Source: Alteromonadaceae bacterium
GTDB taxonomy: Bacteria; Pseudomonadota; Gammaproteobacteria; Enterobacterales; Alteromonadaceae
Direction: 5' to 3'
DNA length: 64,000 bases
Assembly: GCA_013373625.1 (NCBI GenBank)
Contig: JABXHM010000008.1
Location: 62,001 to 126,000, forward strand
Shown here: positions 415 to 33,097 of the stretch, one piece after another
Layout: each line of letters begins with the position of its first letter
Position numbering within the stretch: position 1 is the first letter of the stretch
Position numbers and translations under genes: made by a program
Notes under the pieces: model-generated
What the model was told of the DNA's origin: nothing
Databases searched by the model: none
Seen by the model: only the letters and a program-made list of their open reading frames with translations

Positions 415-448
415 TTGTAACATAACTGTCACCCTTCTCTATTAGTCT
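415..448 (+). promoter_or_regulatory. Putative PhoB box and promoter upstream of the triple-module lipoprotein
   Basis: Two heptamers, TTGTAAC (415-421) and CTGTCAC (426-432), are separated by ATAA, giving the 11-bp period of PhoB-binding half-sites. The arrangement copies the E. coli Pho box layout (CTGTCAT-4 bp-TTGTCAC). About 10 bp downstream lies a weak -10-like element (TATTAG at 440-445 or TAGTCT at 443-448), the spacing expected when PhoB replaces the -35 contact. The coding start is at 494. Binding is inferred, not shown. Confidence 0.6.
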
Positions 449-493
449 TGCATCGTCTTAAAAATCCAAAATGAATTTTACTGGGAGAAATCG

Positions 494-3400
494 ATGGCAG
501 TTCGTAATGTATTTAAGGTAAGTGCAATTACAACAGCGCTTATCCTTGCTGGTTGCGGTGGCGACATTAATATCAATGAAGGTGATGAGGTTGTAGCACC
601 AACAACCCCTCCAACAACACCCACTACACCTACCACCCCTACAACACCTGACGTTGATACGCCTGCATCATTAGGTTTAGCCACCGACGTATCAAGCGAA
701 TTTCCAGACATTACAGACAAACCGGTATATCGCGTAGATGCGGATTTGACTGTTGCCCAGGACATGACTCTAACCAATGACACGCACTGGATCATCAAAG
801 GGCGATTTGCCGTCGGTAATGACAATGCAGATCCAGCGGTACTGACCATTCAAGCCGGTACCACCGTAATCGGCGAAGACGGCGATGATTTCCTGGTTGT
901 GCGTCGTGGTTCTCAAATTGATGCGTCAGGTTCAGCATCACAGCCTATTACAATGACGTCGATTGAAGATGTTACAGGTCAGGAAACCTCTATCGGTCAA
1001 TGGGGTGGTGTCGTCTTGTTGGGTAATGCACCAACCAATCTGTGTAATACAGGTGATGACGCCAGTACATCAGAAGACGAGTTAGTGAATTGCGGTGTGT
1101 CTGCCGAAGGTGATGCGGGTCTCTACGGCGGTAATAACCCGGAAGACAATTCTGGTACGCTGGAATATGTCGTGGTGAAACACGCCGGTAAAGCTCTGGC
1201 TTCAGGTGATGAACTCAATGGTATTTCATTTGCAGGTATCGGCTCAGGCACCACAGTAAATCACATTCAGGTGCATCAGAACCTGGATGACGGTATCGAA
1301 TTCTTCGGTGGTACGGTTAGCGTGAGCAACGTCGTTCTGACTGACATCGGTGATGACTCACTGGATTGGTCATTCGGTTGGACTGGTAGTGCTACCAACG
1401 TCTACATTCAGCAAAGCGCTGACGGCGGTGATAACGCGATTGAAGCCGATAATAATGAAGATAATCCAGGTTGGTTACCACTGACCAAGCCAACTGTTTC
1501 TAACGTAACCATTGTCAGTGCCGATGGCACAAACGGTGTGCGTCTGCGTAACGGCACGGCCGGCGTGCTATCTAACGTACTGGTAACCGGCTCAACACTG
1601 GCGCAAAATTGTTTACGTGTTAATGGCGCAGAGTCTATTGCTAATGCTGAGTCTGGAGAGTTATCAATTACTGACTCGGTCGTTGCCTGTGAAACACCGG
1701 CCAATAACTTTGGTAGCGATACCATTGACGGCGGCACCACTCAAGAGTGGTTTGAAGGTCAAAGCGGAAATAGTGTTTTAACCACTGCCGAATTAATGCT
1801 CGAAGACAATGGCTATTTCCCCATGGCGAACTCTCCGCTGGTCTTAGGTGGCGGCGATTATATTGGTGCTTTTAATCCGGCTGCGGCCGATTGGACGGCA
1901 GGCTGGACGGTTGGCGTTAATGGTGGTTTCCCTGAAGATGTTAACAATGCCTTCGAACAAGGACTGGCGACAGACGTTTCTGCTAACTTCCCTGCGCTGA
2001 CTGATAAGCCTGTTTACGAAGTCATGGCCGATACAACTTTTACCAGCGATGTCACGTTTACCAACGATGCATACTGGCTGCTCAAAGGTCGCGTTGCAGT
2101 AGGTAACGATAACGAAGATAGCGCAGTGCTTTACATTGAACAAGGCACCACGGTATTTGGCGAAGAGGGCGATGACTTCCTGGTTGTTCGTCGTGGCTCG
2201 CAAATCAACGCTGCTGGTAACGCAAATGCCCCAATCACCTTTACGTCGGTACAAGATCTGACGGGCGATGAAACATCAATTGGTCAGTGGGGTGGTCTGG
2301 TATTACTTGGTAATGCACCGACCAACTTGTGTAATACTGGTGACGATGCAGCGACTTCTGAAGCTGAACTCACCAACTGTGGCGTTGCTGCCGAAGGTGA
2401 TGCTGGTCTGTATGGCGGCAACAATCCTGCGGATAACTCTGGTGTCATGCGTTATGTACTGGTTAAGCATGCCGGGCGTGCATTAGCCGCTGGCGATGAG
2501 CTAAACGGTATTTCATTTGCGGGTATTGGTTCCGGTACTGAAATCGAATACATCCAGGTTCACCAGAACCTGGATGACGGTGTTGAATTCTTTGGCGGTA
2601 CAGTCAGTGTGCGTAACATTGTATTGACTGACATTGGTGATGATTCATTGGATTGGTCATTTGGCTGGACGGGTAACGCACAAAACGTGTATATCCAACA
2701 AAGTGCAGCAGGCGGCGATAACGCTATCGAAGCAGATAATAACGAAGATAACCCAGCCTGGACGCCATTAACTACACCCACTATTTCGAACGTGACTATT
2801 GTTGGCGCCGATGGCACTAATGGTGTACGTCTGCGCAACGGTACTGCGGGTACGATTCGTAACCTGGTTGTTACCGCAGGCGAAGGCTATTCAAACTGCC
2901 TGCGTGTTAACGGTGCAGAGGCGATAGCCAATGCAGAGAGCGGCAGCTTGTCAGTCGAAAACAGTGTTGTCGCCTGTGAGGCGGATAGCAACTTTGGTTC
3001 AGACACTATCAGCGGTGGATCAACCCAAGCCTGGTTTAGCGGACAAACTGGCAACAATGTGATGACTGCCGATGCCCTAATGCTCTCTACGGATGGTTAC
3101 ACGCCTCGCTCAGGCTCTCCGCTACTGGGTGCCGGTGTGGATATGTCCGATGTAAATGACTTCTTCCTGCCAACCAATTATATCGGTGCTTTTGATGGCG
3201 ACACGAACTGGATGGAAGGCTGGACGGTCGCCGTGGCTGATTCAGTACCTGCTGATGTGACCAATGCGTTAGCGCAAGGGTTAGCGACAGATGCATCTGC
3301 TGATTTCCCTGAAATAACTGATAAGCCGGTTTATCGAATTACGCCAGATACCGTATTTACCAACGATGTGGTACTAAGCAATGATGCTCACTGGCTGATT

Positions 3401-4567
3401 AAAGGTCGTGCTGCGGTTGGTGAAGACAATAGCCAGAGCGCAACCTTATACATTCAGCGCGGAACAACGGTATTCGGCGAAGACGGTGACGACTTCCTGG
3501 TAGTGCGTCGTGGCTCTAAAATTGAAGCGTCTGGTACAGCTACTCTGCCTATCACATTTACCTCTTCAGAAGATATGACGGGACAGGAAACGTCAATTGG
3601 TCAATGGGGTGGTCTGGTTATTTTAGGTAATGCCCCGACTAACCTGTGTAATACCGGTGACGATGGCGCCACCTCTGATGACGAACTGGCCAACTGTGGT
3701 GTCAGTGCCGAAGGTGATGCTGGCTTGTACGGCGGTAATAACCCGGAAGATAACTCAGGTACCATGCGCTACGTTATCGTAAAGCATGCTGGTAAGGCGC
3801 TAGCTGCAGGCGATGAACTAAACGGCATCTCTTTTGCCGGCGTGGGCAGCGGCACAGAAGTTGACTTTATTCAGGTCCACGAAAACCTCGACGATGGTGT
3901 AGAGTTCTTTGGCGGTACAGTCAATGTCAGTCACTTAGTACTCACTGAAATTGGCGATGATTCTTTGGACTGGTCGTTTGGCTGGACCGGTAAAGCCCAG
4001 TACGTGGTGATCAAGCAGGGTACTGAAGGTGGCGATAACGCGTTTGAAGCCGACAATAACGAAGACAACCCCGCCTGGACACCTTTAACAACGCCTACCG
4101 TATCGAATGTAACCATCATTGGTGCAGCAGGGACAAATGGTGTGCGATTACGTAACGGCACTGCCGGTACGATTAAGAATCTGGTGGTCACAGGTGGTGC
4201 AGACTACAGCAACTGCCTGCGTGTCAACGGTGATGAATCCATTGCCAATGCTGCCAACGGCAGCCTGACCGTCACCCATTCAACGGTCGCTTGTGAATCC
4301 GGTAGCGCCTTTGGTTCTGATACCATCGACGGTGCATCAACCGAAGCATGGTTCAGTGGTCAGGATGGCAACAGCATTGTGGCTTCAGCGGCTGACCTGA
4401 ACTTTACTGCGACAGGTTATTTCCCTGCCAGTGATTCAGTGTTGCTAGGTTCGGGCTTTGACGCTTCATCGCTGGATGTGTTCTTTGATAGCACCGATTA
4501 TCAAGGTGCATTCGATGGCGAAACCAACTGGACACTGGGGTGGGTAACTGTAGGTCTGCAAGACTAA
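494..4567 (+). CDS. Large surface lipoprotein with three tandem ~430-residue modules
   Basis: This 1357-residue protein starts with a lipoprotein signal peptide (lipobox LAGC, Cys21), then a Thr/Pro-rich linker of TTP repeats at about residues 35-52. Three homologous modules follow at about 60-488, 489-927 and 928-1357. Each opens with GLATD and contains FLVVRRGS, TSIGQWGG, LLGNAPTNLCNTGDD, LYGGNNP, HAGKAL-type, GGTV and GDDSLDWSFGWTG motifs. Each has four cysteines in two pairs (NLCNTGDD/NCGV and NCLRVNG/ACE), probably disulfides. The short repeated strands and the many Gly, Asn and Asp residues suggest a right-handed beta-helix. Similar single-module proteins occur beside TonB-dependent receptors in Bacteroidetes and Proteobacteria; their ligand is not known to me. 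The receptor gene follows directly and a Pho-box-like site precedes, so a surface substrate-binding role under phosphate limitation is inferred. The start has a GGGAGA site 6-7 nt upstream. Confidence 0.75.
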   Translation: MAVRNVFKVSAITTALILAGCGGDININEGDEVVAPTTPPTTPTTPTTPTTPDVDTPASLGLATDVSSEFPDITDKPVYRVDADLTVAQDMTLTNDTHWIIKGRFAVGNDNADPAVLTIQAGTTVIGEDGDDFLVVRRGSQIDASGSASQPITMTSIEDVTGQETSIGQWGGVVLLGNAPTNLCNTGDDASTSEDELVNCGVSAEGDAGLYGGNNPEDNSGTLEYVVVKHAGKALASGDELNGISFAGIGSGTTVNHIQVHQNLDDGIEFFGGTVSVSNVVLTDIGDDSLDWSFGWTGSATNVYIQQSADGGDNAIEADNNEDNPGWLPLTKPTVSNVTIVSADGTNGVRLRNGTAGVLSNVLVTGSTLAQNCLRVNGAESIANAESGELSITDSVVACETPANNFGSDTIDGGTTQEWFEGQSGNSVLTTAELMLEDNGYFPMANSPLVLGGGDYIGAFNPAAADWTAGWTVGVNGGFPEDVNNAFEQGLATDVSANFPALTDKPVYEVMADTTFTSDVTFTNDAYWLLKGRVAVGNDNEDSAVLYIEQGTTVFGEEGDDFLVVRRGSQINAAGNANAPITFTSVQDLTGDETSIGQWGGLVLLGNAPTNLCNTGDDAATSEAELTNCGVAAEGDAGLYGGNNPADNSGVMRYVLVKHAGRALAAGDELNGISFAGIGSGTEIEYIQVHQNLDDGVEFFGGTVSVRNIVLTDIGDDSLDWSFGWTGNAQNVYIQQSAAGGDNAIEADNNEDNPAWTPLTTPTISNVTIVGADGTNGVRLRNGTAGTIRNLVVTAGEGYSNCLRVNGAEAIANAESGSLSVENSVVACEADSNFGSDTISGGSTQAWFSGQTGNNVMTADALMLSTDGYTPRSGSPLLGAGVDMSDVNDFFLPTNYIGAFDGDTNWMEGWTVAVADSVPADVTNALAQGLATDASADFPEITDKPVYRITPDTVFTNDVVLSNDAHWLIKGRAAVGEDNSQSATLYIQRGTTVFGEDGDDFLVVRRGSKIEASGTATLPITFTSSEDMTGQETSIGQWGGLVILGNAPTNLCNTGDDGATSDDELANCGVSAEGDAGLYGGNNPEDNSGTMRYVIVKHAGKALAAGDELNGISFAGVGSGTEVDFIQVHENLDDGVEFFGGTVNVSHLVLTEIGDDSLDWSFGWTGKAQYVVIKQGTEGGDNAFEADNNEDNPAWTPLTTPTVSNVTIIGAAGTNGVRLRNGTAGTIKNLVVTGGADYSNCLRVNGDESIANAANGSLTVTHSTVACESGSAFGSDTIDGASTEAWFSGQDGNSIVASAADLNFTATGYFPASDSVLLGSGFDASSLDVFFDSTDYQGAFDGETNWTLGWVTVGLQD

Positions 4568-4583
4568 TACCTTGATAAAAAAG

Positions 4584-4658: not shown

Positions 4659-7358
4659 ATGAAAACAACACAAAAGTCAGTGATGCAAATTGGCAGTCTG
4701 TCACTGGCCATCGCCACCATACTTGGATCATCCTTGCTGCCTGCCAGCGTATTGGCACAGCAAAGCGAAGAAGAAGCTATAGAAGAAGTGGTAGCAACCG
4801 GCACACGTCTTAAAGGGACTGCAACAGCGGTGTTACAAGAGCGTCAGAATCAAGCCTTTGTTGCCGATATTCTGGGCGCGGAGCAAATTTCCCGCACGGG
4901 GGATAGCGATGCGGCTTCAGCACTGCGCAGGGTTACCGGCCTTACATTAGTTGATGGTAAGTTTATTTATGTCCGTGGTTTGGGGGAACGCTATTCAAGC
5001 ACTCAGTTAAATGGTATGACCGTGCCTAGTCCGGATCCAACCCGCTCGGTAGTACCACTGGATTTATTTCCATCAAGCATTATTGAAAGCCTGAATGTGC
5101 AAAAGTCTTTCTCGCCAAATATGCCGGGCCACTTTGGTGGTGGTAATGTAAATATCCGGACTAAGTCTATCCCTACCGATTTTGTCTTTAATATTACTGG
5201 TGGTTTGGGCTGGAACACGGAAAACAGCAGTAATGACGGTATGTTTTACGCCGGTGGTGGCGATGACTGGTCGGGACGTGATGATGGCACCCGCGCACTA
5301 CCTTCAATTATTGCGGCGGGCCTGAATGCAAACGGTTCGCCGGGCTTTGAGGGAGATTCGTCACGAACGCTGGCCGAGACCCAGGCAATCTTAGATTCAT
5401 TTAACTGGGATATCGGACCGACCGAAAAATCAGCAGATCCGAATATGTCTCTGGGTATGACGCTGGGTAACAATTATGTTTTCGACGATGACAGCGTATT
5501 GGGTTTTTTAGCCACCGTCGCATACAGTAATCAGTGGTTAGTTACAGAGGAACAGCTCGGTAACGATATCGGCGGTGGTCAGGAAAATCCTCGCTTCACC
5601 AAATATCGCGACATGATTTCAACTGAGCAAAATGTCAATTGGAGTGGCATGTTCAATGTCGGCTATGAGTTAAACAGTAATCATAAAGTCGAACTGGTCA
5701 ATATGATTTTACACGACATGCGCGATCGTCTTCGTGATGGTTCGTATTTCGATGACAGTGAATCTGTGCCCGGTGTTGAAGAGTTTCGCCGTATGGATAT
5801 CATTTTTGAAGAGCGTGAAATGGTGTCTTCGCAGTTAAAAGGGACGCATAACTTCCTCGATTTGCTGGGCGGTGTTTATTTTGACTGGTACGCAGGAACC
5901 AGTCGCGCATCACGAAGTGCTCCGGACATTATGGAAGCAACCTTTCAGCAATTTTATGACGATGCAGGCAATATTGAGCTGGAACGTCTGGATGATACGC
6001 CCGGAACCAACCTGAACCGCCAGTTCCAGGTACTCGAAGATCAGTCTGACACCTATGGCTTTAACGTCTCGACCGCCTTTTTTGGCAGCGGTTACGATAT
6101 TGAAGTGAAGGGGGGTTTTGACTATTACGAGAAAACCCGTGATGCCAACAACATCGACCTGGCTATTCGTAACTTTGCCATTACCGACGAGTACAAAGTC
6201 GGTAATCGCCTGGATCAGATATTTACTGAAGAAAATATCTACAACGACGATTTTTACACCAGCTCGACAGGCCGAAATCTGTATCAGGATAATACCGGCG
6301 AGGGTGATAAATACTCTGCAGCAAGCAAGCTTACCGCTGGATATTTAATGGTTGATGCGTTCTTTAATAATAAATGGCGTGTTAGTGGTGGAGCGCGTTG
6401 GGAAGAGTTCCAGCAGGTGTCTATCCCATTTGTTGAGCACTCTGATAAATTTGCACTGGATACCGCTGACATTGTCGAAGCAATATACAACGAAGATGAC
6501 ATCCTTCCGTCACTGGCATTGACGTATATCAAGAGTGAAGAAACCCAGTTTCGGTTGAACGTGAGCCAAACACTCATCCGTCCTGATTTACGTGATATCA
6601 GTACGACTTTCTTTATCGACCCGCTTACTGAGTTCCTGGTACGTGGCTCGCCCTCATTGGTTGAAACTGAACTAACGAATGTGGATTTCCGTTGGGAATG
6701 GTACATGTCGCAAGGGAATAACCTGTCGGTAGCAGTCTTTTATAAAGACATGGAAAACCCTATCGAAATGGTTCAGTTTGATGGCGGTGAAGGGGTTCCT
6801 CAGTTACTTACTGCCAATGGTAAAACTGGTGAACTGTATGGTGTGGAAGTTGAATTTTTACACGATTTAACCTTTGTTGACGATTCACTGAGCAACTTTT
6901 TCTTCTCGGGTAACATGACCTTGTCTGACTCCGAAGTGAAAATAGGTAGTGATGACCAAAATTCGCTGTTCTCACAGCAAGCCAGACAAGCCTATGGTGG
7001 TACTGTCACGGCAACAATCACTAACGATGTGCGACGCTTAGTTGGCCATTCTGAGTGGGTTGCCAATGTACAGTTCGGCTGGGACTCAGATAACGGCGAA
7101 CACTCTGCATCGTTGGTGTATAACGCCTTTGGTGAGCGCATTATTGCACCAGGTGTACGCGGCTTTGAAGACGGTATAGAGAATCCGTTCCATTCACTGG
7201 ATTTTGTTTATACCTATTACCCGGACTTTAATACCACGGTAAAACTGCGTGTGCAGAACCTGCTTAACGATGATAAGGAAATTGCTCAGGAAGGACTCCT
7301 GTTGCGCAGGGAAACGGTTGGTACAGGTATCAGTGCCAGCGTCAAGTATGAGTTTTAA
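4659..7358 (+). CDS. TonB-dependent outer-membrane receptor
   Basis: The 899-residue protein has a signal peptide ending near LAQQ (about residue 34), an acidic segment EEAIEEVVATGTR that holds the likely TonB box, and a plug domain with FIYVRGLGERYSSTQLNGM and the downstream FGGGNVNIRTK strand that usually closes the plug. The rest consists of alternating beta-strand segments and ends in aromatic Phe (SVKYEF), as expected for a 22-strand barrel. The start at 4659 is preceded by AGAGGAG at good spacing. These receptors import scarce ligands using energy from TonB-ExbB-ExbD, whose genes follow in this window. The substrate cannot be read from sequence. Co-location with the lipoprotein suggests a receptor/surface-lipoprotein pair. 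Confidence 0.93.
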   Translation: MKTTQKSVMQIGSLSLAIATILGSSLLPASVLAQQSEEEAIEEVVATGTRLKGTATAVLQERQNQAFVADILGAEQISRTGDSDAASALRRVTGLTLVDGKFIYVRGLGERYSSTQLNGMTVPSPDPTRSVVPLDLFPSSIIESLNVQKSFSPNMPGHFGGGNVNIRTKSIPTDFVFNITGGLGWNTENSSNDGMFYAGGGDDWSGRDDGTRALPSIIAAGLNANGSPGFEGDSSRTLAETQAILDSFNWDIGPTEKSADPNMSLGMTLGNNYVFDDDSVLGFLATVAYSNQWLVTEEQLGNDIGGGQENPRFTKYRDMISTEQNVNWSGMFNVGYELNSNHKVELVNMILHDMRDRLRDGSYFDDSESVPGVEEFRRMDIIFEEREMVSSQLKGTHNFLDLLGGVYFDWYAGTSRASRSAPDIMEATFQQFYDDAGNIELERLDDTPGTNLNRQFQVLEDQSDTYGFNVSTAFFGSGYDIEVKGGFDYYEKTRDANNIDLAIRNFAITDEYKVGNRLDQIFTEENIYNDDFYTSSTGRNLYQDNTGEGDKYSAASKLTAGYLMVDAFFNNKWRVSGGARWEEFQQVSIPFVEHSDKFALDTADIVEAIYNEDDILPSLALTYIKSEETQFRLNVSQTLIRPDLRDISTTFFIDPLTEFLVRGSPSLVETELTNVDFRWEWYMSQGNNLSVAVFYKDMENPIEMVQFDGGEGVPQLLTANGKTGELYGVEVEFLHDLTFVDDSLSNFFFSGNMTLSDSEVKIGSDDQNSLFSQQARQAYGGTVTATITNDVRRLVGHSEWVANVQFGWDSDNGEHSASLVYNAFGERIIAPGVRGFEDGIENPFHSLDFVYTYYPDFNTTVKLRVQNLLNDDKEIAQEGLLLRRETVGTGISASVKYEF

Positions 7359-7367
7359 ATGACAATA

Positions 7368-7483: not shown

Positions 7484-7517
7484 ATGTAATAAAATTGTCA
7501 CAGAAAGACCCTATCCT
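7484..7517 (+). promoter_or_regulatory. Putative PhoB box and -10 upstream of the DUF3450-TonB operon
   Basis: ATGTAAT (7484-7490), spacer AAAA, TTGTCAC (7495-7501) give two half-sites with 11-bp periodicity. A weaker third half-site, TTATGAC, lies in phase at 7473-7479. TATCCT at 7512-7517 starts 10 bp after the box, the usual distance of the -10 element in PhoB-activated promoters. The first gene begins at 7576. Confidence 0.6.
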
Positions 7518-7575: not shown

Positions 7576-8331
7576 ATGAAGCTTTTAAATACTTTGATGC
7601 TAAGTACGGCACTTTTGTCGGCATCAGCATTTGCACAGGAGCAGGACTTAGATCCGGCCATTGATGCTGCAAAGGAAATTAATGAGTCTGCTGCAAAGTC
7701 GCAGCAAAAAATTAATGGCATCACTGATCAGATTGACAGCAAGTTGCAACAATTTAAAACACTGAACAAAGAGATCGAAGGGTTAGAGATCTATAACAGT
7801 CAGTTGCTCAAGCAGATTGCCAATCAGGAACAGGAAATGGCTGACCTGAATGCTGCAATAGACGAAGTGTCGGTCATCGAACGTCAGATTACGCCGTTAA
7901 TGATCCGCATGATTAACGGCCTGGAGCAATTTATTGAACTCGATGTACCGTTTTTGCCCGAAGAGCGCAGTGAACGTATATCCAGCCTTAAATCTATGAT
8001 GGACCGTGCTGACGTCGCTGCGTCTGAAAAATTCCGCCGGGTTATGGAAGCTTACCAGGTAGAGATGGACTATGGCCGCACCATGGAAGCCTACACCGGT
8101 TTGCACGAAATTAACGGTCAGGAACGTGACGTCGAGTTTTTGCGTTTAGGTCGTACCGCGTTGATTTATCAAACCCGCGATGCCGGTATGCAGGGCGTCT
8201 GGAACAAACAAACCCGTCAATGGGAAGAGCTTGATAGTTCTTACCGCACGCAGGTAACCAAAGCGTTACGTATGGCCAAAAAGCAATTAGCACCTGACTT
8301 GTTAATGCTGCCAGTTGCGATTACAGACTAA
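7576..8331 (+). CDS. DUF3450 family periplasmic coiled-coil protein
   Basis: The product has 251 residues with a signal peptide cleaved near SAFAQEQ (about residue 20). Long heptad-rich helices follow from about 25 to 110 (AAKSQQKINGITDQI, LQQFKTLNKEIEGLE), then a conserved globular part containing LDVPFLPEERSERI, a hallmark of DUF3450, and a C-terminal segment with GMQGVWNKQTRQWEEL. DUF3450 genes regularly precede a TtpC-type ExbB, ExbB, ExbD and TonB, as here. The gene is first in a tightly spaced operon: the next start is about 11 nt past the stop. A periplasmic partner of the TtpC/TonB complex is the likely role. The family assignment is strong; the molecular function is not known. Confidence 0.88.
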   Translation: MKLLNTLMLSTALLSASAFAQEQDLDPAIDAAKEINESAAKSQQKINGITDQIDSKLQQFKTLNKEIEGLEIYNSQLLKQIANQEQEMADLNAAIDEVSVIERQITPLMIRMINGLEQFIELDVPFLPEERSERISSLKSMMDRADVAASEKFRRVMEAYQVEMDYGRTMEAYTGLHEINGQERDVEFLRLGRTALIYQTRDAGMQGVWNKQTRQWEELDSSYRTQVTKALRMAKKQLAPDLLMLPVAITD

Positions 8332-8342
8332 GAGGACGAAAA

Positions 8343-9710
8343 GTGATGTTGAAATCGTTTAAATCAATCGTATTTGGTCTGGCTGCTGCGAGCATCAGTT
8401 TAGGGGCCGTTGCACAAAGTGACCGCGCGCTGGATCTTGATGCGCTACTCAAACAGCTCGAAGAAGGGAAATTTGCCCAGACTCAACAAAATAAACAGCG
8501 CGAGCAACAGTTTATGGCTCAGCGTGCAGAGCAGGATCGCATTCTGCGTGAAACCGAACAACTGCGCGCACGTACGCTGCAAACGTCAGAACAGTTAGAA
8601 ACCCAGTTTGAAGAAAACGAGTTTAAGCTGGCAGACTTAAACGAAGCGCTAACCGCTCGTTTGGGTTCATTAAAAGAATTGTTTGGTGTATTACAGCAGG
8701 TCGCTGGCGACACTAAAAACAAATTTTATAACTCCACTATTTCTGCCGAAATTTCTGGCCGTGCTGAGTTTTTAGATCAGTTGGCACAGGACATGGGCTC
8801 CAGCTCAAAACTCGCGTCGATCGATGAAATCGAGCGTGTATGGTTTGAAATTCAGCGCGAAATGACCCAGTCAGGCAAAGTCACTAAATTTAATACTGAT
8901 GTGGTGGAAGCCGGTGGCGCCAAAGTGAACAAAGAAGTGGTTCGCGTTGGTCCGTTTGCCCTGGTTGCCGATGGAAAATATCTCGAATACAACGGTGTTA
9001 CCGGTACGGTTTCTGAGTTAATTCGTCAACCTGCTGATCGTTATGGTGATTCAGCAGCGGAACTTCAGGCGTCAAGTGGTGAACTGGTGAAGTTTGGTAT
9101 CGATCCTACTGGTGGCTCTATTCTTGGTCTGTTGGTGCAAGCCCCTAACCTGCAAGAACGTGTTGAGCAGGGCGGAGTTGTGGGTTACATCATTTTAATT
9201 GTTGGTGCCTTTGGTTTATTACTGTCTATTGAGCGTTTGTTTACGCTGACCATTATTCGTACCAAGGTAAACAGCCAGCTCAAGTCGAGTGAAGTTAAAA
9301 CCAATAACCCGTTGGGCCGCGTGTTGAAAGTGCGTGAAGAGCACCCGAATGCTGATACCGAAGCGCTGGAGCTGCATTTAACCGAAGCCATTTTGGCCGA
9401 AGTACCCAAGCTGGGACGTAACCTGAGCATCATTAAAATCATCTCGGTTGTCGCACCACTTATGGGATTACTCGGAACGGTAACCGGTATGATCAATACC
9501 TTCCAGGCTATTACCCTGTTTGGTACCGGTGACCCTAAATTAATGGCCGGTGGTATTTCTACCGCATTGGTAACGACGGTACTGGGTTTGGTTGTTGCGA
9601 TCCCAACTACCTTACTCTACGCCATGCTCAATACGCGCAGTAAAAACATTGTTTATATTTTGCAGGAACAAGCTGCTGGTGTAATCGCAGAGCGCGCTGA
9701 GCGGAGCTAA
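8343..9710 (+). CDS. ttpC: TtpC-like long ExbB/TolQ-family protein
   Basis: The 455-residue protein has a signal peptide (AVAQSDR near residue 25), a long periplasmic coiled-coil region (about 30-270) rich in Gln and Glu, and a C-terminal MotA/TolQ/ExbB proton-channel domain. That domain has membrane segments near 280-300 (GYIILIVGAFGLLLSIE), 365-390 (VVAPLMGLLGTVTGMINTF) and 400-430 (GGISTALVTTVLGLVVAIPTTLLYA). The GLLGTVTGM motif is the classic TolQ/ExbB signature. The extended form corresponds to TtpC of Vibrio TonB2 systems, where it is a fourth component needed for transport. A GTG at 8343 and an ATG at 8346 are both possible starts after AGAGG; spacing slightly favours GTG. Confidence 0.88.
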   Translation: MMLKSFKSIVFGLAAASISLGAVAQSDRALDLDALLKQLEEGKFAQTQQNKQREQQFMAQRAEQDRILRETEQLRARTLQTSEQLETQFEENEFKLADLNEALTARLGSLKELFGVLQQVAGDTKNKFYNSTISAEISGRAEFLDQLAQDMGSSSKLASIDEIERVWFEIQREMTQSGKVTKFNTDVVEAGGAKVNKEVVRVGPFALVADGKYLEYNGVTGTVSELIRQPADRYGDSAAELQASSGELVKFGIDPTGGSILGLLVQAPNLQERVEQGGVVGYIILIVGAFGLLLSIERLFTLTIIRTKVNSQLKSSEVKTNNPLGRVLKVREEHPNADTEALELHLTEAILAEVPKLGRNLSIIKIISVVAPLMGLLGTVTGMINTFQAITLFGTGDPKLMAGGISTALVTTVLGLVVAIPTTLLYAMLNTRSKNIVYILQEQAAGVIAERAERS

Positions 9711-9715: not shown

Positions 9716-10234
9716 ATGATCGAGTTTCTCGAGGCAATACGTGACTTTACAGAAACCGGAGGCCAGGTACTCCTGGTTATAGGGTTACTGATATTTGTGA
9801 TGTGGCTTTTGATCCTCGAACGGGCGCTGTACCTGCTGATTTGGCACAAAAACTTACGTAAAGACGCGGTAGCAATGTGGAAAGCACGGGACGATAGAAC
9901 GTCCTGGTATGCTGAACAGGTTCGTTCCAAGATGATTTCGTCGTTAACGATCAAACTTAACGGCAGCATTCCGGTCATTCAGGCATTGGTGGCACTGTGT
10001 CCGCTATTGGGTTTGATGGGAACCGTTACCGGTATGATCGAAGTTTTTGATGTTATGGCTATCTCAGGTTCAGGCAATGCCCGTTCGATGGCATCCGGTG
10101 TCTCTAAAGCCACTATTCCTACTATGGCAGGAATGGTCGGGGCTCTGTCGGGAGTGTTTGCGTCAACCTGGTTGAACCGCAAAGTAAAAACCGAACGAGC
10201 TCACTTAGAAGAGTCCCTGATTAAGCGCAAATAA
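9716..10234 (+). CDS. exbB2: ExbB-family proton channel protein (TonB2-type)
   Basis: The 172-residue product has three predicted membrane segments: about 17-37 (GQVLLVIGLLIFVMWLLIL), 90-110 (ALVALCPLLGLMGTVTGMI) and 130-150 (ATIPTMAGMVGALSGVFAST). PLLGLMGTVTGMI is the conserved ExbB/TolQ motif. It lacks the long N-terminal extension of the gene before it and matches ExbB2 of Vibrio and Shewanella in size. With ExbD it would form the inner-membrane proton-driven motor that energises TonB. It starts 5 nt after the upstream stop, consistent with one transcript. Confidence 0.92.
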   Translation: MIEFLEAIRDFTETGGQVLLVIGLLIFVMWLLILERALYLLIWHKNLRKDAVAMWKARDDRTSWYAEQVRSKMISSLTIKLNGSIPVIQALVALCPLLGLMGTVTGMIEVFDVMAISGSGNARSMASGVSKATIPTMAGMVGALSGVFASTWLNRKVKTERAHLEESLIKRK

Positions 10235-10302: not shown

Positions 10303-10710
10303 ATGAAACAGCATTTTCAAAACCTGGTTGATGAAGAAGAAGCCACTATCGATATGACGCCTATGCTGGACGTTGTATTCATTATGTTGATTTTCTTCAT
10401 CGTAACAGCGTCGTTTGTAAAAGAAGCTGGTATCGACGTTAACCGTCCCGAAGCGGCTACCGCAGTGAAAAAAGATCGCGCTAATGTGCTGATTGCTATT
10501 TCAGATAAGGGCGAAATTTGGATCAATAAACGCCGCATCGATGTGCGGGCGGTACAAGCCAATATAGAACGCCTACATGCGGAGAATCCGCAGGGAACAG
10601 TGGTTATTCAGGCTGACAGAAAGGCCACTACCGATACGCTGATCAAAGTAATGGACGCATCCCGGGCTGCCGGTGTTTATGATGTGTCAATTGCAGCGCA
10701 AGAGCCATAA
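10303..10710 (+). CDS. exbD2: ExbD/TolR-family biopolymer transport protein
   Basis: The 135-residue protein has a short cytoplasmic N-terminus, one membrane helix at about 20-42 and a periplasmic C-terminal domain. IDMTPMLDVVFIMLIFFIVT contains the conserved membrane aspartate (MLDVVF) that carries protons in ExbD/TolR. The periplasmic part has the usual strands (VLIAISDKGEIWINKRRI, GTVVIQADRKATTDTLIKVMD). It partners ExbB in powering TonB. A 68-nt gap separates it from exbB2, with no terminator visible, and the tonB start lies 13 nt after its stop. Confidence 0.94.
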   Translation: MKQHFQNLVDEEEATIDMTPMLDVVFIMLIFFIVTASFVKEAGIDVNRPEAATAVKKDRANVLIAISDKGEIWINKRRIDVRAVQANIERLHAENPQGTVVIQADRKATTDTLIKVMDASRAAGVYDVSIAAQEP

Positions 10711-10723
10711 GCGAGCACAGACT

Positions 10724-11335
10724 ATGTCACGATTTTTAATCGCATTTGTTGTATCACTGGCGATTACGTTGGGATTGTTCTTTTTGATGCAGTCGCTCAT
10801 TAAAATGGGTGGCAGTGCATTGACCGAGCCTCCGAAAGGCAGCGTACTCGACTTTGTGCGTATCAAGCCCGAAGAGCAGGTACAGAAAAAAGAGCGTAAG
10901 CCACGCAAGCCGCCAAAGCCGGAAGAGCCGCCACCGCAAATGGAGTCGCCGCAAATGGACTCGCCAAACCCGGACTCGGACGGCAACGCTATGGCGTTTG
11001 GCGCTGATGTAGGCGATGGCATGGCACTCGAAGGCGGCGGTCTGGCACTTGAGTCCGGTGACGGCGAGTACCTGCCAATTGTAAAGGTCGCGCCGGTTTA
11101 TCCGCGTCGTGCTTTACAGCGCGGTATTGAAGGCTTTGTTATTGTTGAATTCACGGTAAATAAGCTCGGTGCAGTCAAAGACGTTTATGTTGTCGAAGCC
11201 AACCCCGAAGGGATCTTTGAACAGGCAGCTATGGATGCTGCGATGAAATTCAAATATAAACCACGGGTTGTTAATGGCGAGCCAACGGAAGTTTCTGGTG
11301 TGCAAAACCGTATTACTTTCCAGATAGACGGGTAA
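10724..11335 (+). CDS. tonB2: TonB-family energy transducer
   Basis: The 203-residue protein starts at the ATG at 10724 (MSRFLIAF). An earlier in-frame start would overlap exbD2 and add a non-membrane leader. One N-terminal membrane helix (about 4-24) is followed by a charged Pro/Lys/Glu linker (KPRKPPKPEEPPPQ) that spans the periplasm, a Gly/Asp-rich stretch, and a TonB C-terminal domain with PVYPRRALQRGIEGFVIVEF and FKYKPRVVNGEPTEV. The linker is short, as in the TonB2 class, which often relies on TtpC-like partners to reach receptors. It contacts the TonB box of receptors such as those at 4659 and 32966. Confidence 0.94.
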   Translation: MSRFLIAFVVSLAITLGLFFLMQSLIKMGGSALTEPPKGSVLDFVRIKPEEQVQKKERKPRKPPKPEEPPPQMESPQMDSPNPDSDGNAMAFGADVGDGMALEGGGLALESGDGEYLPIVKVAPVYPRRALQRGIEGFVIVEFTVNKLGAVKDVYVVEANPEGIFEQAAMDAAMKFKYKPRVVNGEPTEVSGVQNRITFQIDG

Positions 11336-11342: not shown

Positions 11343-12665
11343 ATGAAGCAATCACTTTCTAAATCCCTATTGTCCTTCGCTGTGGCTGGGGTACTGGTGA
11401 CCGGTGCAAGCGGTGTGTTCGCAACGTTACTGGCAACCAATGCAGTGGCGCAGGAACAAAAAGCCAGCGACAAGCCCACCCGCCGTACGCCGGCGTTGCG
11501 CTCAAAAGTATATGAGCAGCTGGCCCGTGCGCAGGAACAGGCCGATAGCGGCAACCTGTCCGAAGCGATCGATATTCTTGATTTGGTAAAAAGTAAAGCC
11601 GATTCCATGAACAGCTATGAGCTGGCTATGATGTATAACTTTTACGGTTTTATTTATTACAACGATGAACAATACGATAACGCGCTGCAAAACTTTGCCG
11701 AAGTTGTAAAACAGCAACCGATCCCGGAAAGTTTTGAAATGAGCACGCTGTTTAGCTTAGCGCAGTTAAACCTGATGCAAGGTAACTATGCTGACAGTAT
11801 TGAGTACTTAGAACGTTGGGAAAACCTCAATACCGGTAAAATTCCGCCTAAAAATCTTGTTATAAAAGCGCAGGCGTACTATCAGAACAAACAGTATGAA
11901 GAAGCCGCCGGGTTTATTACTCAGGCCATTAAAGGCCATGAAGATGAAGGTATGATCCCGGACGAGGGCTGGCTTATTTTGCAACGCGCCATTTATTACG
12001 AGCTAAAACAGCCTGAGAAGGTTAAAGACGTGCTGGTAAAAATGGTGAAGTTGTTTAATGAGCCGAAATACTGGATTCAACTGGCCGGAATGTTTGGCGA
12101 ATTAGGCGAAGAGAAAAAGCAGTTAGCGATTATGGAAGCGGCTTACCAGCAGGGGTATGTGACTTCTGCCGCTGATATCTTCAACTTAGCGCAGCTGTAT
12201 TACTATCACAAAGCACCGTATAAGGGTGCCCGGTTAATGGAACAGGCTTTAAACGAGGGAGTGCTGGAGAAAAACCTGCGTAACCTTAAATTTTTGGGGC
12301 AAACCTGGACCTTGGCTAAAGAACAGGATAAAGCAGTACCTGTTATGGCTCAGGCCGCCAGCCTGGCTGATGATGGTGAGCTGGATGCCCAGTTAGCGCA
12401 AATTTATCTCAATATGGAAAAATGGGATAACGCCATTACGTCAGCAGATAATGCACTGAACAAAGGTGAGTTGCGTAACCCTGGAATTCCTTATCTTATA
12501 AAGGGAATGGCGCTCTATAATAAGAAGCAGTATGCCACGGCACTTGATGTGCTGGCAGAAGCTGAGAAATACCAGTCGAGTCGCGGCATGGCACAACAAT
12601 GGTCAAAATTTGTTGAGGCGGAGAAATCCAGCAGCGAGCAAATTCAGGCAGAGCTGGGTTCTTAA
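11343..12665 (+). CDS. TPR-repeat protein of the TonB2-type operon
   Basis: The 440-residue secreted protein has a signal peptide (cleavage near NAVAQEQ, about residue 36) followed by many tetratricopeptide-like helices. Examples are ELAMMYNFYGFIYYNDEQYDNAL, AQLNLMQGNYADSIEYLERW, AQAYYQNKQYEEAAGFITQA and IKGMALYNKKQYATALDVL. It ends the operon, 8 nt after tonB2 and just before a terminator. TPR proteins at this position are common in Alteromonadales TonB2 loci and may scaffold the periplasmic DUF3450-TtpC-TonB assembly; that role is inferred. No enzyme motif is visible. Confidence 0.87.
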   Translation: MKQSLSKSLLSFAVAGVLVTGASGVFATLLATNAVAQEQKASDKPTRRTPALRSKVYEQLARAQEQADSGNLSEAIDILDLVKSKADSMNSYELAMMYNFYGFIYYNDEQYDNALQNFAEVVKQQPIPESFEMSTLFSLAQLNLMQGNYADSIEYLERWENLNTGKIPPKNLVIKAQAYYQNKQYEEAAGFITQAIKGHEDEGMIPDEGWLILQRAIYYELKQPEKVKDVLVKMVKLFNEPKYWIQLAGMFGELGEEKKQLAIMEAAYQQGYVTSAADIFNLAQLYYYHKAPYKGARLMEQALNEGVLEKNLRNLKFLGQTWTLAKEQDKAVPVMAQAASLADDGELDAQLAQIYLNMEKWDNAITSADNALNKGELRNPGIPYLIKGMALYNKKQYATALDVLAEAEKYQSSRGMAQQWSKFVEAEKSSSEQIQAELGS

Positions 12666-28746: not shown

Positions 28747-30438
28747 ATGGACCGTAGGCAATTTATAAAATTCACTTCAGCAGCGGGAAGCAGCCTGCTT
28801 ATCAGTACTGGTTTGGCCGGCTGTACTGCCAACCAGTCGCTATCATCTGATAAGGTACATTTCACGCACGGCGTGGCCAGTGGCGATCCACTTGCTTACG
28901 CCGTCATTATCTGGACTCGTGCTGTGCCAAGTGGTGTGAACTCAGCGACAATACGCTGGGAACTGGCAACAGACAGTAGCTTTTCCACTATCGTGGCCAG
29001 CGGCGATACAAAAGCAGAAAAGACCCGGGACTTTACTGTTAAAGTTGATGTTCAGGGCTTACAACCGGCTACGCGCTATTTTTACCGTTTTCGTACAGCT
29101 GGCCAGTTATCTGTAACCGGTGAAACACTGACATTACCTGTTGGTCATGTGGACAGCGTCAATCTTGGCGTTTTCTCGTGTTCCAACTACCCGGCTGGCT
29201 ATTTTACGCCGTATCAGCTGGCTGCTGATGACGCCAGCATTGACTATGTTTTGCATTTGGGTGACTACATTTATGAATACTCCAGTACTGGCTACGCCAC
29301 TGAACATGCTCAAGAAATTGGCCGTACGTTAGCCGTTGATAATGAAAATGAAATTTACACACTCACCGATTACCGAAATCGCTACGCGAAATATCGCACG
29401 GACAATGGGTTATTAGCGCTACACCAGCGCAAACCATTTATTGTTGTGTGGGATGACCATGAAATTGCCAACGATACCTATAAAGATGGCGCCCAAAATC
29501 ATACCGCTGATGAGGGGGATTTTTATGTCCGCAAGGCAGCGGCTATTCAGGCTTACTTTGAGTGGTTGCCTATTCGTCCGCCGTTAGGTGAAAGCCAGCC
29601 GCAGATTTATCGTCAGTTCCAGTTTGGTGATCTGATTAACCTGTACATGCTTGATACCCGCGTGATCGGGCGAGATAAGCAACTCAACTACAAAGATTAT
29701 CGTGATGCTCAAAGCGGCAATTTTGATACCGACAGGTTTAAGGCGGATTTACTGAATCCAAATCGTTCAATTATGGGTAAAGCACAAGCTGACTGGTTTA
29801 TTGAAGCATTAGCGTTATCGCAAAATAAGGCACAATGGCAAGTGATTGGTCAACAACTGCTCATGGCCAGAATGTTTTTTCCCAGCGAAGTCTTTACCGG
29901 TGTGCCGCGTAACGAAATCGCGGCGAATATTCAGCGTTTGGCCGATTTACAACGACGCCAGCAAGCTGGCGAAATCCTTTCTGCGAAAGATACTCAGTCT
30001 CTGCAATCAAAGATGGCTTATAACCTTGATGCGTGGGATGGTTATCCCATTGAGCGGGAGCGTGTTGTAAACGCTTTTTCTGCCTGTGATAAACCAGTGA
30101 TTGCATTAGCAGGTGATACGCACAACGCCTGGCATAATTTGCTTACAACTCAGGAGGGCCAGGTGGCTGCAGTTGAATTAGGCGTATCCAGTGTGTCGTC
30201 GCCCGGCATGGAAGGGTATTTGCAAATGAATGCGGAGGTGGCTGAGCAGGTCGCTCAAGATTTACCTGATCTGATTACCGATCTTCAATACTGCAATATG
30301 CACCAAAGGGGTTATCTGACGGTGAACTTTACACCGCAAAAAGCCATTGCAACCTGGGTATTTGTTGACACTGTTATGCAAGCTCAGGCTAATGTTGCCG
30401 CAACGCACCAGATTGAAATATCCCCCGACGCTATTTAG
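28747..30438 (+). CDS. phoD: PhoD-type alkaline phosphatase/phosphodiesterase, Tat-exported
   Basis: The 563-residue protein begins with a twin-arginine signal (DRRQFIKFT) that also contains a lipobox-like LAGC (Cys26), so it may be a Tat-exported lipoprotein. A PhoD N-terminal beta-sandwich follows (FTHGVASGDPLAYAVIIWTR). The catalytic domain has FSCSNYPAGYF with the cysteine that binds iron in B. subtilis PhoD, HLGDYIYEY, VWDDHEIANDTYKDG and ALAGDTHNAWHN. All metal-site motifs look intact. PhoD releases phosphate from phosphate esters outside the cytoplasm. It converges on a TonB-dependent receptor that has a strong Pho-box-like site, and shares a terminator with it. Regulation of phoD itself by PhoB is not clear from the sequence. 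Confidence 0.92.
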   Translation: MDRRQFIKFTSAAGSSLLISTGLAGCTANQSLSSDKVHFTHGVASGDPLAYAVIIWTRAVPSGVNSATIRWELATDSSFSTIVASGDTKAEKTRDFTVKVDVQGLQPATRYFYRFRTAGQLSVTGETLTLPVGHVDSVNLGVFSCSNYPAGYFTPYQLAADDASIDYVLHLGDYIYEYSSTGYATEHAQEIGRTLAVDNENEIYTLTDYRNRYAKYRTDNGLLALHQRKPFIVVWDDHEIANDTYKDGAQNHTADEGDFYVRKAAAIQAYFEWLPIRPPLGESQPQIYRQFQFGDLINLYMLDTRVIGRDKQLNYKDYRDAQSGNFDTDRFKADLLNPNRSIMGKAQADWFIEALALSQNKAQWQVIGQQLLMARMFFPSEVFTGVPRNEIAANIQRLADLQRRQQAGEILSAKDTQSLQSKMAYNLDAWDGYPIERERVVNAFSACDKPVIALAGDTHNAWHNLLTTQEGQVAAVELGVSSVSSPGMEGYLQMNAEVAEQVAQDLPDLITDLQYCNMHQRGYLTVNFTPQKAIATWVFVDTVMQAQANVAATHQIEISPDAI

Positions 30439-30596: not shown

Positions 30597-32966
30597 TTAA
30601 AAGTTGGCGTAAAAACGAACCCCAATGATTTGCGGCATACCTCGAACATTAGTCGGGATACCGATACCGCCACCGGTGTTGCCCGCATCAATAAGGTAAT
30701 CTTCATCGAATAAGTTGTTGGCATACACTTCATAAGCATAGAGTGAGTTCTGTGCCTGAAGTTTAATGGCAATATCGGTAAGTGAATAAGCGTCCTGAGA
30801 GGAGCCGGGGTAGTTACTACTTTCAAAGAAAACTTCTGACTGATAGGTGGTCGTCCAGTTGAAGCTTAATGCCCAGTTGTCGATATCAAAGCGCTTATAA
30901 ATATTAAGCGCAGTGCTCACATCCGGCGCCAGGCGGAACTTATTGCCACCATACTGAAACTCGCTGCCATCGGCAGTTTCGTCAGCAAATCTGGCATCAA
31001 GTAAACCCAGAGAGGCCATCACACGGAAACTGTCATCGGGATGGTAGGTTGCCGTTGCTTCAAAGCCAGACATGGTCGAGTCACCGACCGTTACTGTGTA
31101 AGACTGCAGGGTTTCAATGTCAGTGTAGGATTGCTGGTAATCGCTATACTGGTAGGTAAATAACGCACTGCTGACGGTAAAATTGCGGTTTTGGTATTTT
31201 AAGCCGACGTCGAAACTATCGACGGTTTCAGCTTTAGTGATGGTCACACTGCTATCGCTATTTACATTGACTACCGGCGAACGTCGTCCCTGGGCATAGT
31301 TAGCGTAGAGGTTCCAGTTGTCGCTGACATCGTAACTAATGGCTACCCGTGGCAAGGTATCACTGAAATCTCCCTCACCGGAAAACGTAAATTCGCCGGC
31401 GGCCGTTGTGTAGGTGTTTGTGGAGGATCTCGACTCGTCAATATAGCGCAGACCTGCCGTCAGGTTCAGCTCAGGTGTAATATAATATGAAGCCTCCGCG
31501 ACATAAGAAACGATATCCAGCGACGCCTCAAAAATGTAGGGGCCCTGCAGTAAAATGGCATCAAAGTCAGGGTTTGAAATTGGCGATCCGTCTGCATTGA
31601 ACAGTGAACTTACTAAAATTTCGCGCAATGCCTGAATTTCTTCCAATGTGGCATCGGTAGCAATGTTTTGGTTAAGTGGAATGGATGAGCCTTGTTCCAA
31701 CGATGCTTTTACTGCATCAAAGGTGCCGCGGACCCAGGGGTCGACCATGGCAGTATAAGGCATAATCGAGTCATCCTGACTCATCGATGCGCCAATGAAG
31801 CCAGCAAAACGGTCTAAATCATCGTAAACAAAACGTACAGAAGCGCCTTTTAACTTAGCGTCATTATCAAAATAAGCATCCTGTATACGCAGTGCTGAAC
31901 CATCTGCATCGAATCCTTCTGATACTTCAACGTCTTTATAATAGGCGTCAGCGCGCAGCGTATAAAAATCACTGAGATTGTAGGTGGCAGTAAGATCATA
32001 TGACTGCAGGGTTCGCTCGATACCCAGCTCATCCCCCATACTGAACTCTGCGGCGGTATAAGGGCTGGTATCGCCGCCTTTAGGGGCGATTGAACCTGAC
32101 TTAAAAGCTATGCCAGGCTGATCATTGTATTCAAGAGAAGCCCGGCCAATCAGTTCCAGTTTATCGATTTGTGAACGCCAGGTAGCTCGAATTGCTTGCA
32201 CCGATGTACCTTGCAAGTCTTCGCTGCTGCATTTCACTGCGTTGCCATTATGATCATAGGTATCAGCATTGCCATAATAAGCGTTATCGGTACACGCCTG
32301 GTTTTCTACGATGCCATCCATTTCGCGATACAAACCGGCAACACGAAATGCGTTGTTGCTGTTAACCTGACGGTTAAACATAAATTCGGCTTCCTGGCCG
32401 TCTTCGCTGTTATAACCTAACTGTATTCTGGCTGTATTTTCATATTCGGGCAGTGCTGAATGGATACTCATCGCGCCATTAGCTGCCGCGACGCCAAACA
32501 GGGTAGGCTGTGGACCTTTGAGCACCTCCACGCGGTTTATGTCGTATAACGCCACACTGGCAACGGTTTTTTTGCTGATATCAAAACCGTCCTGGTATAC
32601 CGATATACGCGGTGTGGCAGACACCGATGAAACATCGTCAGTGACCCCACGAATACTAAAAGAGGGCAAGCTAACAGCCTGTTCCTGAATTTGTACGTTC
32701 GGTAATACCCTTGCAAGTTGATCTAACTGCATGGTATTTGTGCGTTTCAGATAATCACCTGAGATGACATCCATAGTCACAGGCACTTCCATAAGAGATT
32801 GCTCTCGCATTTGTGCGGTGACGGTTATCTCCTCAATGTAGTGACCATTATTGGTTTGCTCTGTCGCGTCGTCAGGTGTTGCCTGATCTTGCGCCCAGAC
32901 CGGAGAAAAAGCTGTTGAGCAGGCGCTCAATATGGCGCTTGCCAGCACCGTACGGGAAAAATTCAT
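30597..32966 (-). CDS. TonB-dependent outer-membrane receptor, probably Pho-regulated
   Basis: The 789-residue protein has a signal peptide (cleavage near PVWAQDQ), a TonB-box-like YIEEITVTAQ at about residues 43-52, and a plug domain with LDQLARVLPNVQI, SFSIRGV and VEVLKGPQPTLFGVAAANGAM. A beta-barrel follows with the typical late motif YANYAQGRRSP and a C-terminal Phe (IGVRFYANF). The protein resembles the iron-complex/nutrient receptor class, but no substrate can be read. A triple Pho-box-like element lies about 100 bp upstream and a PhoD phosphatase is its convergent neighbour, so uptake of a phosphorylated compound is the best guess. Confidence 0.93.
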   Translation of the reverse strand: MNFSRTVLASAILSACSTAFSPVWAQDQATPDDATEQTNNGHYIEEITVTAQMREQSLMEVPVTMDVISGDYLKRTNTMQLDQLARVLPNVQIQEQAVSLPSFSIRGVTDDVSSVSATPRISVYQDGFDISKKTVASVALYDINRVEVLKGPQPTLFGVAAANGAMSIHSALPEYENTARIQLGYNSEDGQEAEFMFNRQVNSNNAFRVAGLYREMDGIVENQACTDNAYYGNADTYDHNGNAVKCSSEDLQGTSVQAIRATWRSQIDKLELIGRASLEYNDQPGIAFKSGSIAPKGGDTSPYTAAEFSMGDELGIERTLQSYDLTATYNLSDFYTLRADAYYKDVEVSEGFDADGSALRIQDAYFDNDAKLKGASVRFVYDDLDRFAGFIGASMSQDDSIMPYTAMVDPWVRGTFDAVKASLEQGSSIPLNQNIATDATLEEIQALREILVSSLFNADGSPISNPDFDAILLQGPYIFEASLDIVSYVAEASYYITPELNLTAGLRYIDESRSSTNTYTTAAGEFTFSGEGDFSDTLPRVAISYDVSDNWNLYANYAQGRRSPVVNVNSDSSVTITKAETVDSFDVGLKYQNRNFTVSSALFTYQYSDYQQSYTDIETLQSYTVTVGDSTMSGFEATATYHPDDSFRVMASLGLLDARFADETADGSEFQYGGNKFRLAPDVSTALNIYKRFDIDNWALSFNWTTTYQSEVFFESSNYPGSSQDAYSLTDIAIKLQAQNSLYAYEVYANNLFDEDYLIDAGNTGGGIGIPTNVRGMPQIIGVRFYANF

Positions 32967-33068
32967 TTAGTATGTCCTTGAAAAGATGTGAACGCACATG
33001 CAGGCGTTACACAATTGAAAATTCAGGCGTAAATTACTGGAATTTAAAGACAATTTAATGAATCAATA

Positions 33069-33097
33069 GTGACAGTCAGGTAACACTATTGTGACGG
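33069..33097 (-). promoter_or_regulatory. Putative triple-half-site PhoB box upstream of the second TonB-dependent receptor
   Basis: Read on the minus strand, CCGTCAC (33097-33091), spacer AATA, GTGTTAC (33086-33080), spacer CTGA, CTGTCAC (33075-33069) give three heptamers in perfect 11-bp phase. Ten bp further on lies TTAAAT, a possible -10 element (4/6). This is the strongest Pho-box-like match in the window. Confidence 0.68.

Follow-up and report, generated by a model that had tools for sequence, protein, structure and literature searches.

The 64,000-nucleotide stretch analysed here (hereafter the window; C18:62001-126000, contig JABXHM010000008.1 of assembly GCA_013373625.1) comes from an Alteromonadaceae bacterium whose genome, assembled as 5.09 Mb in 123 contigs, belongs to Alteromonas as GTDB circumscribes that genus, Salinimonas included. 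The window opens on a lipoprotein, receptor and motor module. A predicted surface lipoprotein of 1357 aa with the lipobox LAGC (494..4567, plus strand) is followed on the same strand by a TonB-dependent receptor, its partner (receptor 1; 4659..7358; PF00593, PF07715), and by six motor genes: a TtpB-like DUF3450 protein (7576..8331; PF11932, 308 bits), a long ExbB, or TtpC-like, proton channel subunit (8343..9710; PF01618), ExbB (9716..10234; PF01618), ExbD (10303..10710; PF02472), TonB (10673..11335; PF03544) and a TtpD-like TPR protein (11343..12665; TPR families). Start codons were taken as the first ATG or an aligned start and may err for single genes, notably the PstS-like gene described below, which overlaps phoR. 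The original prediction, made from the letters of the window alone, had joined this module to a PhoD phosphatase and a second receptor further downstream in a single phosphate-starvation uptake programme spanning 33 kb; the genes that it named are all present, with the expected Pfam families.

The module stands directly downstream of the phosphate regulators. A Pfam scan of the flank (L211) placed phoB, phoR (PF11808) and a PstS-like gene (PF12849) at C18:58367-61427, outside the window, and the 3' end of a 2OG-Fe(II) oxygenase gene (PF13640 on L002:304-1257) occupies window positions 1..250 of the plus strand as the last gene before the lipoprotein; all four lie on one strand, running into the lipoprotein gene. 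Two genes thus stand between phoR and the lipoprotein (PstS-like, L211:18435-19427; oxygenase, L002:304-1257), of which the oxygenase was not found in some relatives. The window starts ~2.9 kb past the end of phoB, so that linkage to phoBR was out of sight of the original prediction.

The gene order DUF3450, long ExbB, ExbB, ExbD, TonB, TPR is that of TonB2-type (Ttp) systems, and a plug-and-barrel receptor, two ExbB proteins, ExbD and TonB all score over their Pfam cut-offs. By gene content the operon is thus a complete TonB2-type motor, predicted to power the receptors. Receptor 1 matched no siderophore or heme family in a family scan, and has no solved relative by sequence. Elsewhere in the same genome, G000:C33:54341-57370 (L268) carries an apparent second TonB2-type motor (DUF3450 37% identical, ExbD 2 kb off) with no Pho box before its DUF3450 gene; this genome has four ExbD genes in total. 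Behind the motor, a 448-aa protein without a Pfam match (15215-16561, plus strand) has counterparts, 35-38% identical, behind the motor of two relatives (L070, L082).

We compared the module across two overlapping, and so not independent, sets of genomes (for example, G019 with L096, and G021 with L117). Within the genus the lipoprotein was found in 34/36 genomes, and in 2/24 genomes from other genera of the order; its unit is 80-86% identical in the close relatives A. halophila, A. lipotrueae and A. abrolhosensis. The phoB search covered 20 lipoprotein-bearing genomes of the genus, and in 17 of these phoB lies ~2.6-3.5 kb 5' of the lipoprotein; in two of the other three, G005 and G016, the locus is at a contig end, which leaves G011 as the one true exception. 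Across 34 regions (32 same-genus, two from other genera; G016 was left out because of its short contig), 30 hold the lipoprotein, receptor, DUF3450, long ExbB, TonB and TPR genes together, the four exceptions being G001, with its motor ~12 kb beyond the receptor, G011, and the two from other genera, G040 and G050. In the two genomes of the genus that have no lipoprotein (G012 and G015), phoBR and the downstream block GSDH-acnB-DUF192-lysC are intact, and between them the pair, the PstS-like gene and the Pho motor are all absent; the only DUF3450 genes over the cut-off in either genome belong to the paralogous motor. L277, a more distant DUF3450 gene of G011 unmatched by the window protein, and DUF3450 matches below the family cut-off were not counted.

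The second set comprised 75 named loci drawn from the best 80 of 542 relatives, which is not a fair sample of the lipoprotein family. A co-oriented receptor follows the lipoprotein in 74/75, the remaining locus being on a short contig, and the motor is present in the stretch covered at 35/75. At 44/75 loci phoB (at least 60% identity) lies no more than 10 kb from the lipoprotein/receptor pair, in one of two layouts: co-oriented (24 loci: Alteromonas, Salinimonas, Aestuariibacter, Glaciecola, Paraglaciecola, Aliiglaciecola, one Aliidiomarina and several metagenome-assembled genomes) or divergent (20 loci: Rheinheimera, Alishewanella, Arsukibacterium and one metagenome-assembled genome). The two layouts suggest that linkage to phoBR arose, or was retained, on more than one occasion. 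In Pseudoalteromonas, three loci (L099-L101) read motor, lipoprotein, receptor, with no phoBR in the stretch covered; and beside 20 further loci from outside the genus phoB was not found, the best regulators being 27-31% identical.

Pho-box-like sites precede both transcription units of the module. The lipoprotein promoter has TTGTAAC-ATAA-CTGTCAC at 415..432 (plus strand), with a -10-like TAGTCT at 443-448, and the motor promoter has ATGTAAT-AAAA-TTGTCAC at 7484..7501 (plus strand), with a -10-like TATCCT at 7512-7517 and an opposite half-site, TATGACAG, just 5'; the spacer between box and -10-like hexamer is exactly 10 bp at both. Scored with a matrix of nine E. coli Pho sites, the motor site ranks first in the window (16.6 bits) and the lipoprotein site third (16.3); between them comes a minus-strand site within the DUF3450 gene (16.4). 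Eight simulated 64-kb sequences had best sites of 11.2 to 19.2 bits, and across the genome a relaxed Pho pattern shows hardly any enrichment (51 forward and 44 reverse matches, against 39 and 40 for a reversed control). Because simulation reaches the single sites and the pattern count barely exceeds its control, our argument rests instead on position and conservation.

The motor box is present in 33/33 orthologous operons, always at 14.2 bits or above (14.2-22.4 in 31/31, window included, 16.6 in G001 and 17.3 in G011), usually as TGTAATAAAACTGTCAC and ending 74-90 bp 5' of the ATG, in contrast to paralogous DUF3450 genes (37-39% identical), which score 3.2-6.9 bits in 5/5 genomes and have a box in 0/5. 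At the lipoprotein promoter the best site is a 7-4-7 repeat ending 58-68 bp 5' of the ATG in 22/34 loci. We also scored pairs of heptamers against 98 unlabelled promoters of the genus, a small background whose 99% level hangs on its top one or two promoters, after removing ambiguous promoters (29 in the genus set, 19 in the named set). The 99% level was reached by 30/31 motor promoters, 14/32 lipoprotein promoters and 6/10 promoters of the second receptor, with phoB, the positive control, at 19/22; 28/32 lipoprotein promoters were at or above the 95% level. Few or none of the negatives reached it (receptor 1 1/33, long ExbB 0/31, TPR 0/31, TonB 0/28, PhoR 1/22, PstS-like 1/31, oxygenase 0/9). 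Medians at the named loci lean the same way: lipoprotein 11.8, motor 14.3 and phoB 13.5, against 2.8 for receptor 1, 1.0 for TPR and 0.6 for TonB. In the 20 loci outside the genus the boxes are mixed, the share of random stretches scoring as high running from 0.007 (L254) to 1.0 (L265), with 0.2-0.9 in L247, L251 and L252, and we did not use them as evidence. Conserved 7+4+7 boxes near a -10 element strongly support membership of the Pho regulon and predict induction by PhoB.

The lipoprotein itself is modular. It consists of three tandem units of ~430 aa (~aa 60-487, 488-915 and 916-1357), with identity to the third unit of 70% for the first and 73% for the second, and the number of units ranges from one to three between genomes. 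No Pfam or NCBIfam family matches it over cut-off; hits to DUF7210, SbsC_C and VPg fell below cut-off and were set aside. An AlphaFold (AF2) model of one unit (pLDDT 94.8) is a right-handed beta-helix, for which VIA-align found resemblance to alginate epimerases, NosD, tailspikes and polygalacturonases (Z 19.0-22.5, rmsd 3.0-4.3 over 250-313 residues among the matches listed); Foldseek against the PDB returned no match at E <= 0.001, and searches for solved relatives by sequence gave none that was meaningful (best E 0.7). The VIA-align matches to the model speak to fold, not to function. Nine residues (D218, D219, E222, D240, D241, D244, E270, D272 and R305) are invariant in 43/43 units and fall about one helical turn apart in sequence; from the acidic ones we infer a putative metal or catalytic stripe on the modelled helix, with a spacing that we take to be like that of GH28 enzymes. 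Homology to SusD was considered and dropped, since Pfam and family scans gave no SusD match and the model is a beta-helix instead.

Members of the lipoprotein family occur in 30/299 genomes drawn from the phylum. At the 20 loci outside the genus (one from the same family, three from the same class and sixteen from other classes) lipoprotein and receptor stand together in 20/20, and in five (L251, L252, L255, L259 and L261) they are followed by gspD-gspE-gspF of a type II secretion system (T2SS); L263, with only a weak GspE-like match, was not counted. This is the published order of ElpS/CC0170 and CC0171, and by synteny we place the window lipoprotein, a lipobox (LAGC) protein paired with a TonB-dependent receptor, in an ElpS-like family, CC0170 itself being compared by description only. 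With five of 20 loci having them, T2SS neighbours are not a strict mark of the family. GspD, GspE and GspF of L252 found nothing (E <= 1e-15) in the 34 regions and 75 named loci, and Pfam found no T2SS gene on the 20 window ORFs scanned.

Lipoprotein and receptor diverge together. Over 30 regions the identity of receptor 1 to the window protein tracks that of the lipoprotein (rho 0.82, p 2e-8); the identities of motor proteins do not (DUF3450 rho 0.21, long ExbB 0.05, TonB 0.18, TPR -0.10). Identities range over 37-87% for the lipoprotein, 46-84% for the receptor and 65-94% for motor proteins. It seems that the two genes of the pair vary as one while the motor behind them changes little, as if the pair were exchanged as a cassette.

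The second phosphorus-acquisition locus lies 24 kb downstream, where a PhoD phosphatase (28747..30438, plus strand; PF09423 339.5 bits and PF16655 103.6 bits, both over cut-off) is convergent with a second TonB-dependent receptor (receptor 2; 30597..32966, minus strand; PF00593, PF07715). The NCBIfam PhoD equivalog matches the window PhoD below cut-off (313.7 of 1000), and receptor 2 resembles siderophore receptors, again below cut-off. The receptor-2 promoter (33058..33097, minus strand) carries three to four tandem heptamers at 11-bp spacing, CCGTCAC-GTGTTAC-CTGTCAC-(GATTCAT); it scores only 8.2 as a single site, and in a three-heptamer test 10/10 genomes reach the 99% level, the window scoring 17.8 against a background maximum of 9.1. 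The original prediction's three Pho-box promoters therefore stand on conserved position (the motor throughout, receptor 2 throughout, the lipoprotein at the 95% level), with the window's sites taken alone lying within chance. No clear Pho box precedes phoD in the window (6.6, vs a 95% level of 8.3); among 18 promoters of PhoD orthologues, 16 are at or above that level and 14 at or above the 99% level.

Receptor 2 occurs in 10 of the 22 same-genus genomes searched and adjoins PhoD in all ten, as the original prediction had it for the window. In the other nine genomes, however, the two lie on a different contig from the lipoprotein (five) or at least ~0.9 Mb away along the record (four), which makes the 33-kb span particular to this genome among those examined. 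The genes between the two window loci, such as acnB, lysC and GSDH, have no Pho boxes. Among them, a minus-strand gene at 25025-26629 encodes a protein with a 5'-nucleotidase C-terminal domain that could add nucleotide scavenging, also without a Pho box; a GGDEF/HAMP protein (23350-25116, minus strand) has an ORF that overlaps it by 92 bases, perhaps through a wrong start. PhoD-family genes lie 11-15 kb from the lipoprotein in G002, G022 and G040. That of G002 (L082:17048-18658) is a different PhoD, 38% identical to the window's, with a three-heptamer Pho array; it stands behind the motor, after DUF2254 and two uncharacterised genes that follow the motor in the window too.

We suggest that window positions 494-12665 are probably a PhoB-controlled outer-membrane uptake module that imports a phosphorus compound. 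Phosphate control of the module is very likely, and is strongly supported because of its conserved Pho boxes and its position beside phoBR and the PstS-like gene. Also in favour are the joint absence of its parts from G012 and G015, the co-divergence of lipoprotein and receptor, and the reported production of related proteins under phosphate starvation in Caulobacter and Flavobacterium. Under low phosphate, PhoR and PhoB, whose genes lie ~3 kb 5', would turn on two promoters, one yielding the lipoprotein and TonB-dependent receptor and the other the complete TonB2-type motor (TtpB/DUF3450, TtpC/long ExbB, ExbB, ExbD, TonB and TtpD/TPR). At the cell surface the most likely role of the lipoprotein would be to bind a polymer or complex that contains phosphorus, or to cut it with a metal ion as helper; the receptor, driven by this motor and perhaps alone in being so, would bring in the product; and periplasmic phosphatases (such as PhoD) with the Pst system would complete phosphorus recovery. 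A more specific version, in which the motor is devoted to phosphorus import and the lipoprotein is a modular metal-dependent beta-helix protein cutting or capturing a phosphorylated surface polymer, we put forward tentatively, as somewhat less probable than its opposite.

Several observations weigh against this explanation. Expression data for any Alteromonas were not found. Of the three promoters, that of the lipoprotein is weakest, with fewer than half (14/32) over the 99% level. At the named loci, the two-heptamer 99% level of local unlabelled genes was reached by 0/72 lipoprotein and 0/33 motor promoters (phoB 1/43); some genes in this background have very strong boxes themselves, probably as further Pho genes close to phoBR, and for that reason we do not rely on the comparison. 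The pair and the motor are separable: in G011 a Pho-boxed motor stands at phoBR with the pair on another contig, and at 39/75 named loci the pair occurs without a motor in the stretch covered. The putative acidic stripe would be unlike a site binding the phosphate anion directly, without a metal. Finally, in Caulobacter the receptor CC0171, partner of ElpS, is reported to be constitutive, cell phosphate was unchanged, and deletion of elpS left phosphatase activity unaltered (PMC2996285, in the text accessible), so that transport by the ElpS system is not shown even there.

The Caulobacter findings also provide the most serious alternative, a Pho-regulon module that imports nothing: the lipoprotein would be shed to activate or anchor extracellular phosphatases, as proposed for ElpS, and the receptor would aid export, release or sensing. 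According to the accessible text of PMC2996285, release of ElpS depends on the T2SS, and its overproduction raises extracellular phosphatase activity although ElpS itself had none; gspD-gspE-gspF follow lipoprotein and receptor in a quarter of our loci outside the genus (5/20). The Alteromonas pair, however, adjoins not a T2SS but a complete TonB motor with its own Pho box, and co-divergence of lipoprotein and receptor is what would be expected of physical partners. TonB motors power import in the well-studied cases. We therefore regard such a phosphatase factor as rather improbable.

Far less probable still is a conventional TonB2/TonB3-type system that takes up iron, heme or glycans, in which the Pho-like sites would be chance or secondary. 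It would fit the six-gene motor, the layout of Vibrio vulnificus TonB2, a siderophore transport system with a putative Fur box (PMC6957404, as far as accessible), the likeness of receptor 2 to siderophore receptors below cut-off, and the chance range of the window's single sites; it would leave unexplained the motor boxes in 33/33 operons vs 0/5 in the paralogous motor, phoBR linkage in two layouts, joint absence of the module with phoBR intact, and the lack of a siderophore or heme family match for receptor 1. Nor do we give more than the slightest credence to the 33 kb as one functional unit of lipoprotein, two receptors, motor and PhoD. Pho sites at both loci, PhoD and receptor 2 24 kb downstream here, and the PhoD-family genes 11-15 kb away in three relatives speak for it, but receptor 2 and PhoD are elsewhere in nine other genomes and the intervening acnB, lysC and GSDH have no Pho boxes: a linked unit is largely refuted by the layouts of relatives. 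What survives of the proposed co-occurrence is the lipoprotein, receptor, motor and phoBR, linked in relatives, to which PhoD and receptor 2 are not linked; the two loci are likely co-regulated within a single regulon.

In parts of the surface ocean phosphorus is growth-limiting. Alteromonas is a common marine heterotroph, and passage of large organic phosphorus across the outer membrane is poorly known. With its tie to phoBR and a full TonB motor, the family offers a testable import hypothesis in place of a "hypothetical lipoprotein". If it is true, and if Caulobacter ElpS and Flavobacterium FI and FII act alike, these proteins would represent a route by which bacteria in general bring phosphorus-containing molecules that do not fit through porins across the outer membrane.

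Lipoprotein-receptor pairs linked to phosphate starvation are known in kind, and to that extent the original prediction's statement that no such phosphate-specific TonB system is known does not hold. ElpS (CC0170) and CC0171 of Caulobacter crescentus share with the window pair a LAGC lipobox, a TonB-dependent receptor partner and phosphate starvation, under which ElpS is made (PMC2996285, accessible text), and L252 and four other loci of the family have the same lipoprotein-receptor-T2SS order; the Caulobacter PhoB regulon, in the accessible account, takes in T2SS and TonB receptors (PMC11208175). By description, ElpS is a protein of ~50 kDa beside T2SS genes, whereas the window lipoprotein has three units and stands beside phoBR and a Pho-boxed TonB motor. 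PUSIII and PUSIV of Flavobacterium johnsoniae likewise combine low-phosphate-induced lipoproteins (FI and FII) with TonB-dependent transporters, FII/Fjoh_0545 lying in a phoBR cluster; in the accessible text, FI-FIII are related to the Caulobacter protein (31-36% identity, 50-54% coverage), modelled as polygalacturonase-like and strongly induced by phosphate depletion, FI being the most abundant exoprotein (PMC8115612). These systems, again compared by description, belong to another phylum and come with no mention of a TonB motor in that text, in contrast to the PstS-like gene, motor and modular repeats of the window. The SusCD-like PusCD of Bacteroidota (PMC8115612, same text) also pair a receptor with a surface lipoprotein induced by phosphate depletion, but PusD is a SusD-family lipoprotein and the window's is a modelled beta-helix without a SusD match.

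The new element is a full TonB2-type motor with its own Pho box beside phoBR, and here the original prediction's novelty stands: no description of a Pho-controlled TonB motor was found in the open-access literature searched, subscription papers being mostly outside the search, and the accessible part of PMC2536512 has nothing on the present locus. The closest motors in architecture are TonB2 and TonB3 of V. vulnificus, six-gene operons running from TtpB (DUF3450) to TtpD (TPR); TonB3 has an outer-membrane receptor at the operon start and no known substrate, according to the accessible text of PMC6957404. TonB2 carries a putative Fur box and serves siderophores, and TonB3 is under Lrp and CRP, judging by the title of a paper cited there. 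The window motor differs from these, as described, in its Pho box and in its place downstream of phoBR and an ElpS-like lipoprotein.

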